DNA of 49,867 nucleotides from assembly GCF_900102375.1 (NCBI RefSeq), contig NZ_FNBO01000018.1:1-49867 (forward strand). The letters run 5' to 3'. The DNA is from Halorubrum xinjiangense (GTDB lineage Archaea > Halobacteriota > Halobacteria > Halobacteriales > Haloferacaceae). Position 1 is the first letter of the stretch, and every line of letters starts with the position of its first letter. The position numbers were made by a program, and so were the translations under genes. Of this stretch, positions 4,741-49,867 are shown piece by piece. The notes beneath the pieces were generated by a model, which was not told the DNA's origin, searched no databases, and saw nothing but the letters and a program-made list of their open reading frames with translations.

Positions 4741-5320
4741 TCGCTTATAAATGGCGTTGCGGTGGCGCGTGCCTGCGAGGCCGCCTCGCGGCCGAGCCGC
4801 GAGGGACCGAAGGTCCCTCTGGAAGCCGGCGCGGAGCGCCGGCGACAGCACGCGCGAGGGAGTCGGCAGTCCGGAGCGAAGCGGAGGACCGCCGACGAGG
4901 CTGGGGAGGCGTGAGGCTGCGGTCCCGCGAGCGACCGGAGGGAGCGAGCGGGAGTACGGAAGACGCAGCGCCGAGCGAAGCGAGGCGACCGTCTTCCGGC
5001 GGTGCTGGGCGGGGCGGGACTCAAAGGGGCAGCCGTGAGGGCGCCGTAGGTGACGCAAGGACCGCAGGGAGTGAGCGGAGCGAGCGACTGAGGACCGCAG
5101 CGAGCGTACGGCGCCCTCACGGCTGGGGCTTTGGACGTGTTCGTCGCCGATCCGCTATCAGCCATTTATAAGCAATCGGCTGGGGCTTTGGACGTGTTCG
5201 TCGCCGATCCGACAGCATCGATTTATAAGCAAACAGCTCGGGATTCGGTGGTGTTCTCCGCCGGCCCACCGCCGGTCTCATATAAATAGCCGCCGGCAAC
5301 ACCCAGAGCCGGTTTATAAA
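4741..5320 (+). ncRNA. Dispersed structured element, copy 1 (candidate non-coding RNA or MITE)
   Basis: This element fills the gap between the convergent binding-protein and livF genes. TTATAAAT at 4745-4752 is followed by the box GGCGCGTGCC, pairing with GCACGCGC. Next come a hairpin whose arms GTCGGC (4862-4867) and GCCGAC (4891-4896) flank GGAGCGAAGCGG, the box GAGGCTGGGGAGGCGTGAGG, and the box GGGACTCAAAGGGGCAGCC (5016-5034). A long stem follows with perfect 19 bp arms at 5030-5048 and 5107-5125. The tail GGCTGGGGCTTTGGA is the start of a 57 bp unit repeated from 5178. No frame resembles a known protein. Three more copies occur in the window. Confidence 0.6.
5121..5320 (+). repeat. 57-bp tandem tail units ending in TATA-like sequence
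   Basis: Units starting at 5121 and 5178 share the first 33 of 57 bases (GGCTGGGGCTTTGGACGTGT, then TCGTCGCCGATCC) and both end in ATTTATAAGCAA. A diverged third unit follows from about 5235 with TATAAATAG, and a partial fourth ends TTTATAAATG. The same unit appears in the tails of the other copies of the element. Confidence 0.7.
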
Positions 5321-14831: not shown

Positions 14832-14902
14832 GCACCGGTAGTGTAGTGGTATCACGCAACCTTGCCATGGTTGCAACCCGAGTTCAAATCTCGGCCGGTG
14901 CA
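14832..14902 (+). tRNA. tRNA-Gly (anticodon GCC)
   Basis: 71 nt. Acceptor GCACCGG pairs with CCGGTGC, discriminator A. Anticodon arm around CTTGCCATG, T arm CCGAGTTCAAATCTCGG. CCA is not encoded. A 23 nt duplicate of its 3' end occurs 130 bp downstream. Confidence 0.93.
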
Positions 14903-15070
14903 TTTTCCGAGCGAAGCGAGGAAAATCGCCGAGAGAGATTTGAACGCTATCAGTCGCGCGCAGCGAACGGGCGAGCGAAGCGAGTCCGTGAGCGAGCACG
15001 TCTGATTCTGAGTTCAAATCTCGGCCGGTGCATTTCTCGAACACAGTGAGAGAAATCGCCGAGAGAGAGT
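14880..15070 (+). repeat. Tandem 130-bp duplication of the tRNA-Gly 3' end and its flank
   Basis: The last 23 nt of tRNA-Gly (14880-14902) recur exactly at 15010-15032. Both are followed by a hairpin and then TCGCCGAGAGAGA. The hairpins are TTTTCC...GGAAAA (14903-14925) and TTTCTC...GAGAAA (15033-15055). Their arms differ in both strands but still pair. This looks like att-type flanking of a vanished element or a diverged local duplication. The 3' copy lacks the rest of a tRNA. Confidence 0.75.
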
Positions 15071-15099: not shown

Positions 15100-15417
15100 T
15101 TTTATTTATAAACCGACGACGGTGCTACGGGAGACACCTCCAAAGCCCCAGCCGCGAGGACTCGCGCGGCTCGCTGCGCTCCTCGCTCGGTCGCTCACTT
15201 CGTTCGCTCCCTCGCTGTGGTGCTTGCGTCGCCGTGCTTCGTCCTCACGGCTTGCCCCTTTGAGTCCCGCCCCGCACCGCAACCGCACCTCACGCCTCCC
15301 CAACCTCGTCGCTGGCACCCTCCGCTTCGCTCCGGGAGCCAGCGACTCCCTCGCGCGTGCGATTCGCGCCCTTCGGGCGCTCATCGGCACGCGCCACCGC
15401 CTCGTTCATTTATAAAT
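15100..15417 (-). ncRNA. Dispersed structured element, copy 2
   Basis: Lies on the minus strand between tRNA-Gly and the PiT permease. ATTTATAAAT (15408-15417) is followed leftward by GGCGCGTGCC, GCACGCGCGAGGGAGTC, a hairpin with perfect arms GTCGCTGGC and GCCAGCGAC (15308-15346), GACGAGGTTGGGGAGGCGTG and GGGACTCAAAGGGGCAAGCC. A long imperfect stem (15149-15161 with 15241-15254) and the tail GGCTGGGGCTTTGGAGGTGT follow, closing near a second TTTATAAA (15105-15112). Apart from this element and the tRNA duplication, 15033-15563 shows no gene. Confidence 0.6.
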
Positions 15418-34073: not shown

Positions 34074-34206
34074 CACCTCCAAAGCCCCAGCCGCTCGTTT
34101 ATAAATAGCCGACTGGGGATCGACAGAGAACACCTCCGAAGTCTCAGCCGCTTGTTTATAAATAAGTCACCGAGTATCGACCGCGAACGGCTCCAAAGCC
34201 CCAGCC
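34074..34206 (-). repeat. 57-bp tandem tail units of copy 3
   Basis: Reading the minus strand, two complete 57 bp units begin GGCTGGGGCTTTGGAG and GGCTGAGACTTCGGAGGTGT. Both contain GGTCGAT or GTCGAT near the middle and end in TATTTATAAAC(A/G)AGC. A third begins GGCTGGGGCTTTGGAGGTGT at 34097. Unit length is exactly conserved. Confidence 0.75.
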
Positions 34207-34459
34207 GGGAGGTGGGCGCACGCTCGCTGCGCTCCTCACTCGGTCGCTCACTGCGTTCGCTCCCTCGTTGCGGTGCTTACGTCGCCTGCGCCCACCTCCC
34301 GGCTGCCCCTTTGAGTCCCACCCCGCACAGCCCCGCACCCCACGCCTCCCCAGCCTCGTCAGTCGCCTCCGCTTCGCTCCGGCGACTGACTCCCTCGCGC
34401 GTGCTCCTCGCGCCCTCCAGGCGCTCGGAGGCACGCGCCGCCGCATCTCATTTATAAAT
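34074..34459 (-). ncRNA. Dispersed structured element, copy 3
   Basis: Minus strand, between the MOT1-type transporter and tfs. ATTTATAAAT (34450-34459) is followed by GGCGGCGCGTGCC and GCACGCGCGAGGGAGTC. A hairpin with perfect arms GTCAGTCGCC and GGCGACTGAC (34358-34390) comes next, then GACGAGGCTGGGGAGGCGTG and GGGACTCAAAGGGGCAGCC. The long stem has perfect 19 bp arms (34202-34220 and 34287-34305). Two full 57 bp tail units and a partial third run toward tfs. No gene is visible in 33936-34479. Confidence 0.62.
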
Positions 34460-45835: not shown

Positions 45836-46130
45836 TAAAAGGGGCGGCGCGGTGGCGCGTGCCGGCGAGGCCGCCCCGCGGCCGAGCCGCACGCGCGAGG
45901 GAGTCGCTGGCGGCGCCAGCCGCCTGCGACGAGGCTGGGGAGGCGTGAGGCTACGATGCGGAGCGGGGTGGGACTCAAAGGGGCAGTCGCGAGGGCGAAG
46001 CACGGCGACGCAAGCACCGCAGTGAGTGAGCGAAGCGAACGAGCGAGGAGCACAGCGAGCCGCGCGAGTCCTCGCGACTGGGGCTTTGGAGGTGTTCGTC
46101 GTCGATCCGCTGTCGATCATTTATAAAAGA
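45836..46130 (+). ncRNA. Dispersed structured element, copy 4
   Basis: Plus strand, between the amidohydrolase start and the CBS gene end. GGTGGCGCGTGCC (45851-45863) and GCACGCGCGAGGGAGTC are followed by a hairpin with outer arms GTCGC (45903-45907) and GCGAC (45926-45930), then GACGAGGCTGGGGAGGCGTG and GGGACTCAAAGGGGCAGTC. The long stem has outer arms CAGTCGCGAGG (45984-45994) and CCTCGCGACTG (46070-46080). Tail GGGGCTTTGGAGGTGTTCGT ends at ATTTATAAAA. A weaker CTAAAAGG stands where other copies have TTATAAATG; TATATAAA lies further up at 45801. No gene in 45675-46198. Confidence 0.6.
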
Positions 46131-46198
46131 GCGGTCGAGACTGTCGGCATCCCACGGTCAACCTCTTTTAAATAGCCACCAAGTCGTTCTGATTCGAC

Positions 46199-49562: not shown

Positions 49563-49867
49563 AAGCCAACCAACAGTATTCAACCGCCGTCAATGGCATA
49601 GACGGGGTTCCAACGCAGTCTTTAAGCCGTCCAACCGTGATAGTATACATAGATGGTAAAGAGTACCCGTCACGCGAAATACGAACTCTACTACCACATA
49701 GTGTTTGTACCGAAATATCGGCGTTCGCACCTGACGGGGGAGACGAAGGAACGTCTCGAAACCATCTTCGCGGAAATCTGTGAGGACAAGGGCCTCGAAC
49801 TGGTCGAGTGCGAAGTCATGCCCGATCACGTACACCTGTTCATCGGAAGTCCACCCAAGAACGCCCC
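49521..49867 (+). mobile_element. IS200/IS605-type element carrying tnpA, cut by the window edge
   Basis: The element starts 3' of TTAC, has the hairpin left end, a spacer of about 90 bp, and tnpA. It has interrupted the gene at 49244. Its right end, and any tnpB, lie beyond the window. The orientation is opposite to that of the element at the left edge, so the two left ends face inward across the window. Confidence 0.8.
49653..49867 (+). CDS. tnpA: IS200/IS605 TnpA transposase, N-terminal part (runs off the window)
   Basis: 71 residues are visible: [40 protein letters not shown], and [17 protein letters not shown]. This is the Y1 HUH single-strand transposase. The metal-binding His-x-His is HVH, while the catalytic Tyr lies beyond the edge. 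It cuts single-stranded DNA at the hairpin ends next to a short target (TTAC here). The frame is intact as far as seen. GTGATAGTATACAT before the ATG may hold the promoter. Confidence 0.92.

Follow-up and report, generated by a model that had tools for sequence, protein, structure and literature searches.

A dispersed element of Halorubrum and other haloarchaea with a selected folded core and MITE-like features

Four copies in the window and many more in the genome

Are the similar stretches that recur between the genes of a Halorubrum contig copies of a structured RNA, of a MITE-like mobile element, or of both? The window analyzed here, a stretch of 49,867 nucleotides, is contig 18 of a 3.26-Mb genome of this genus (the own genome), and an original prediction made from the sequence alone had described four such copies in it, with a shared order of boxes and a stated orientation for each, all of which we confirmed. 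The core GGACTCAAAGGGGC is found exactly at positions 5017, 15254 (-), 34305 (-), and 45971, with 0.37 occurrences expected by chance. Copy 1 (+ strand) has a TATA-like motif at its 5' side (TTATAAAT, 4745 to 4752), an RNA body at 4759 to 5142 consisting of P1/P1b, P2, a G-rich linker, and P3 (P3 match of 133.8 bits), and a tail at 5136 to 5235 made of 57-bp units with TTTATAA in each. Its P3 domain (GGGACTCAAAGGGGC ... GGGGCTTTGG; 5013 to 5135, + strand) is matched by the covariance model R1 with an E value of 9.4e-23, a value to be read in the knowledge that this domain belongs to the model's training set. The copy is unusually long because of two palindromic inserts on the + strand, one within P1 (4798 to 4846) and one in the G-rich linker (4924 to 5000), both recognized by comparison with insert-free copies.

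The other three copies follow the same plan. Copy 2 has its RNA body at 15132 to 15400 on the - strand (P3 at 15139 to 15271; 111.5 bits) and a TATA-like motif 5' of it at 15410 to 15417 (-). The RNA body of copy 3, also on the - strand, lies at 34185 to 34444 (P3 at 34192 to 34322; 132 bits), between a tail with further GGCTGGGGCTTTGGA units (34078 to 34184) and a TATA-like motif (34451 to 34458) situated about 15 nt past a gene's stop codon. Copy 4 (+) has its body at 45849 to 46097 (P3 at 45967 to 46090; 132.7 bits) and a tail with TTTATAA at 46098 to 46140; no TATA-like motif was seen close upstream. The window also holds, beside a tRNA gene, a weak match to the P3 model (14918 to 15032; 30.6 bits) in a palindromic unit with tRNA-like text (CGGCCGAGATTTGAAC...) at 14832 to 15060; a unit of this kind is present at about 1800 to 2010 of locus L022, and the two units sit beside two tRNA genes. 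At the right end of the window is a fragment of a Y1 (IS200-type) transposase (49677 to 49862).

The predicted 19-bp perfect stems of differing sequence in copies 1 and 3 held, but the copy number of four was far too low, as the own genome contains some 150 to 160. The 15-mer GGGACTCAAAGGGGC occurs there 151 times with at most one mismatch and 161 times with at most two, compared with 0 and 3 occurrences of a reversed control pattern. A further remark, that annotation programs would call spurious open reading frames over the copies, held for raw ORF lists; in most plasmid records with annotation, no gene overlaps the match.

Anatomy of the element

The anatomy was read from 98 distinct own-genome copies. 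The conserved 5' edge is sharp and begins at GCGGTGGCGCG / GCGGTGGCGCGTGCC. Of 77 copies, 58 have a TATA-like motif in the first 40 nt before this edge and 17 have one at 40 to 80 nt; in each of four windows farther upstream the count is zero. Most of these motifs are 13 to 20 nt from the 5' edge of the RNA; the usual archaeal spacing between TATA box and transcription start is greater than this, so it is doubtful that the motif is the promoter of a transcript containing all of P1. The structured RNA of about 250 to 380 nt is composed of a 5' domain (P1/P1b, P2, and the G-rich linker with CTGGGGAGGCGTGAGG) and a 3' domain, P3, which comprises a helix NNAAG/CTTNN, a GGG/GGG internal loop, a long stem, and an internal motif formed by GACGNAAG / CGCANCGAG. 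Beyond GGGGCTTTGG comes the 57-bp unit with TTTATAA, present one to five times with a spacing of exactly 57 in 94 of 103 cases, and it is within this unit that GGCTGGGGCTTTGGA lies, which corrects the earlier description of a single such box. A + strand RNA, if one is made, might be expected to end near GGGGCUUUGGAGG, but we have no expression data; GGGACUCAAAGGGGC is the element sequence that we name as a probe target for it.

Several observations concern variation among copies. A small number of fixed positions in the RNA have accepted insertions that leave it unbroken (L003, L009, L026, L028, L274, and the two inserts of copy 1): paired palindromes with the layout GTGGTTCGA-[hairpin]-TCGTCAT..ACGA-[hairpin]-TCGAACGAC and palindromic modules of other kinds. 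These insertions are similar to SMR-A, the small mobile repeats known from Haloquadratum (PMC3119063). Among perfect palindromes within copies, loops of 3 nt are the commonest. In L135, L167, L431, and L434, P3 has been cleanly removed between G tracts so that the 5' domain alone remains. Roughly two-thirds of 20 loci retrieved by a 5'-domain motif alone keep an intact P3, judged by eye, and the remainder indicate that dead copies also exist. Some P3 elements of other families (L032, L036, L037, L042, L052, and L060) carry another apical module (CAGCGACCCCTATC ... GATATGTCGCTGAGCGAC) above an unchanged base helix, which suggests that modules can be exchanged.

Covariation supports a selected fold on one strand

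RNAalifold, applied to an alignment of 50 insert-free copies (A1), returned 57 pairs, 27 of them with compensatory changes. Across 48 proposed pairs in these copies, 98.5% of cells are paired versus 86.1% after shuffling, 25 of the 48 pairs show double changes, and the covariation score is 0.350 versus 0.122 (standard deviation, 0.006) in shuffled data; none of 500 shuffles reached the observed value on any measure. Sliding the partners by 1 to 3 columns lowered pairing to 25 to 43%, a control that is favored by the structure having been derived from the same alignment. P2, in which two registers (GAGTC.. and GACGC..) are mixed, was not scored column by column. A single copy gave a folding z score of -5.7. 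G-U cells outnumber A-C cells by 65 to 8, compared with 135 to 81 in the shuffles, and this large excess identifies the + strand as the selected one.

Individual helices tell the same story by simple counting. The helix beside the GGG/GGG loop reads CAAAG/CTTTG in 195 cases, GAAAG/CTTTC in 79, CGAAG/CTTCG in 23, and GGAAG/CTTCC in 2, with about 12 discordant cases, and genomes with few copies add the variants GCAAG/CTTGC, GAACG/CGTTC, and CAACG/CGTTG (read by eye). Inside P3, covariation links the N of GACGNAAG to the N of CGCANCGAG (columns 216 and 268) and the N of AAGNAC to its partner (columns 220 and 263). We conclude that the element carries a selected folded structure on the + strand. 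The structured-RNA part of the original prediction is thereby supported, with strong covariation that survives both controls; the loss of signal that might have followed from aligning more copies did not occur, and the covariation grew. That the copies are merely chance GC-rich palindromes without function can be practically ruled out: the high G+C content favors stem formation, but the copy-count, folding, G-U/A-C, and covariation controls all speak against this reading.

Distribution among haloarchaea and concerted change

The covariance model R1 was built only from own-genome P3 sequences, yet it matches loci of other families at E values down to 1e-17. In a search of the class, 300 of 391 genomes and 72 of 86 genera have at least one match at an E value of ≤0.001; the number of matches per genome was capped at nine and cannot serve as a copy number. 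Hosts include many Halorubrum species, Haloparvum, Halobaculum, Haloarcula, Haladaptatus, Halorussus, Natrinema, and Halopiger; copies have been confirmed in H. saccharovorum DSM 1137. Within Halorubrum, genomes hold between 0 and about 190 copies. Haloarcula-type genomes contain solitary P3 domains without the outer parts, often as head-to-head pairs about 45 nt apart. General synteny is absent in the low-copy genomes, where the only recurrent neighbor is a family of related proteins of about 300 to 400 aa that adjoins P3 at four loci (L445, L448, L450, and L453; four genomes, three genera) and has, by eye only, the look of an OB-fold DNA-binding protein.

The element is depleted on plasmids in the two genomes G147 and G006: in G147, 51 of 52 matches are on the main contig and a single one falls on the plasmid sequence, which totals 403 kb in two contigs (248 and 155 kb), and in G006 all 71 are on the main contig. 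No credible copy was found in annotated phage records or IMG/VR contigs. Viral carriage was rejected, as none of the 31 exact core matches in IMG/VR has a partner box and the PATE of the virus HRTV-DL1 is unrelated. Regulation of co-oriented genes was likewise rejected, since the copies show no orientation bias relative to neighboring genes.

Copies within a genome appear to change together. Same-site copies in different species are 0.64 to 0.77 alike, versus 0.71 among unrelated own-genome copies, and the flanking genes that served as queries have about 84 to 96% identity. In G006, 66 of 71 core matches have the CGAAG variant. Such concerted change is compatible with turnover through new subfamilies and equally with gene conversion, both of which remain possible.

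Empty sites and terminal inverted repeats

Empty sites were looked for in relatives and found for copies 1 and 3. At the copy-1 site, seven relatives in which both flanks were recognized lack the element and have the neighboring genes 74 to 252 bp apart; other relatives hold the element or part of it, and one holds it inverted. Most relatives have the element or a remnant at the copy-3 site, and at least two are empty, with adjacent flanks. Independently of the RNA, we found imperfect terminal inverted repeats (TIRs; TGANCGATAGCGGGAGTGGGT...), each with TATA-like motifs. Of 173 copies, 17 have the left TIR no more than 150 bp from the RNA, versus 0 to 1 in control windows, and a search of the genus with the TIR alone gave matches in 25 of 52 Halorubrum genomes without any control match. 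Among 30 loci retrieved by the TIR alone, 25 enclose the RNA 5' box or G-box, and the partner TIR is most often about 430 to 450 bp away. Site occupancy thus differs between species, and TIRs enclose the RNA in the best-preserved copies; together these results support the MITE-like part of the original prediction. Recognizable TIR matches number only three in the own genome, so the ends of most of its copies are apparently eroded, and many RNA bodies there are intact nonetheless. The outer flanks beyond the TIRs (L338, L470, L475, L485, and others) are of two types, ..GGTCGCTGAAGCGTGCTTCT and ..GGTCAGTACAGACGTAGCGG, between which the RNA occurs in both orientations; inversion or a preferred target is possible.

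No transposase was seen between the TIRs at the 30 loci, whose flanks were covered for 1.5 kb only, and no autonomous partner transposon was found. Direct repeats of 2 to 9 bp were not above those of shuffled pairs, giving no sign of target-site duplication, which is not universal among MITEs.

Two other mobile-element readings were considered. The copies could be single-stranded DNA hairpin elements of the REPIN/IS200-IS605 type that a Y1 transposase mobilizes, with the conserved strand being the transposed DNA rather than an RNA. Strand-specific pairing is equally expected in that case, the many 3-nt loops fit (GNA triloops are suggestive only and no proof), and the head-to-head pairs of Haloarcula-type genomes resemble REPINs. 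We consider this unlikely: six copy-rich Halorubrum genomes (G006, G009, G011, G193, G291, and G186) have no PF01797 match, for which we rejected dependence on Y1/RAYT proteins, the own genome's 25 tnpB loci lack such an element in their ends, and the covarying internal motif and G-U excess favor RNA. Still less likely is an origin as omega RNA or PATE relics of IS605-type transposons. In its favor, PATEs are abundant noncoding haloarchaeal elements (PMC3119063), HRTV-DL1 provides a transcribed example (PMC10544981), and the palindromic inserts resemble SMR-A elements. Against it, the element has TIRs, no Rfam match to archaeal sotRNA families was obtained, and the HRTV-DL1 PATE region differs in having GGCGGG-type palindromes and a GGATGTCA end. 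A link to TnpB was rejected, as no core boxes occur at the 25 tnpB loci, the ends of which are other sequences.

Interpretation

On balance we favor, with moderate confidence, the view that the Halorubrum element is nonautonomous and MITE-like with a selected RNA as its core; transcription, the mobilizing enzyme, and the function of the RNA are unproven. In this model, the imperfect TIRs enclose the structured RNA, a transposase supplied in trans would spread the copies, the + strand would be transcribed, and the folded RNA would bind a protein that promotes mobility or serves the host. Such binding would account for the RNA persisting longer than the terminal repeats. We hold the RNA to be a selected part of a trans-mobilized element and leave open a present role in the host. 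Weighing against this model are the lack of a target-site duplication, the presence of the TIR core in no more than about half of the Halorubrum genomes searched, the missing autonomous partner, the lack of expression data, and the short distance from the TATA-like motif to the RNA; plasmid depletion and absence from virus collections are also unusual for an actively mobile element.

The main competitor, which remains possible, is that these are multicopy host noncoding RNA genes with a cellular role, homogenized by gene conversion, and that the TIRs are secondary or coincidental. Plasmid depletion fits this reading, as do the retention of the 3' domain in most genera while the outer ends differ, the concerted change (orthologous copies no closer than paralogs, and the CGAAG variant of G006), and the frequent survival of a whole RNA body where TIRs are lost. 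It is opposed by the variation in copy number between species of one genus, the empty sites and opposite orientation, the copies with P3 cleanly deleted, and the unbiased orientation to neighboring genes. A bolder reading, offered only as a possibility, is a class-wide archaeal RNA with P3 as its conserved unit and varying outer architectures, these being a TIR-bounded composite that includes a 5' module (Halorubrum) and head-to-head pairs (Haloarcula-type genomes). The folded RNA itself might then drive both mobility and chromosome-wide concerted evolution, as an archaeal counterpart of SINEs or an RNA-dependent chromosome element.

If the favored model is correct, this would be a so far undescribed element that ranks among the most abundant structured RNAs of archaea; about 160 copies of roughly 300 nt amount to an estimated 1.5% of the own genome, and the element occurs in most haloarchaeal genera. 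It would merit an Rfam family and would alter the annotation of intergenic regions in haloarchaeal genomes. Halorubrum and Haloarcula would offer a tractable system for asking what makes a mobile element preserve an RNA fold through compensatory change, which protein reads the RNA, and how dozens of dispersed copies change together.

Relation to known systems

No Rfam family matches the element, either at the gathering threshold or at an E value of ≤5, and literature searches by sequence strings and by topic returned no description of it; no described IS, MITE, or coding gene, any of which would have refuted the original prediction, fits. SINEs are dispersed, based on structured RNA, and have one sharp end and a repeated tail, a likeness shared by our element, which differs in having TIRs; no hallmark of reverse transcription was seen or tested. 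REPINs and BIMEs with RAYT are likewise palindromic repeats of the chromosome that number in the hundreds and sometimes stand head to head, whereas our element needs no resident Y1 transposase and is far longer with a complex fold. TnpB omega RNA and sotRNA (RF02656 and RF02657, according to PMC12558985) are also archaeal structured RNAs tied to mobile elements, but our element has neither an Rfam match nor a tnpB association. PATEs and other IS605-type noncoding elements (PMC3119063, PMC10544981) are, like it, heterogeneous, abundant, and palindromic, and they host small palindromic inserts; PATEs are without TIRs and carry palindromes like those of IS605 at their ends (PMC3119063, PMC10544981), whereas our element has TIRs, and the transcribed HRTV-DL1 PATE has no box in common with it. 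The closest resemblance is to haloarchaeal MITEs (PMC3119063), which are short, noncoding, bounded by TIRs, and present in many intergenic copies without a transposase gene. Our element meets the TIR criterion in a subset of Halorubrum copies and is short and transposase free; it departs from MITEs in having no target duplication or identified parent and in enclosing an RNA structure that is under compensatory selection.
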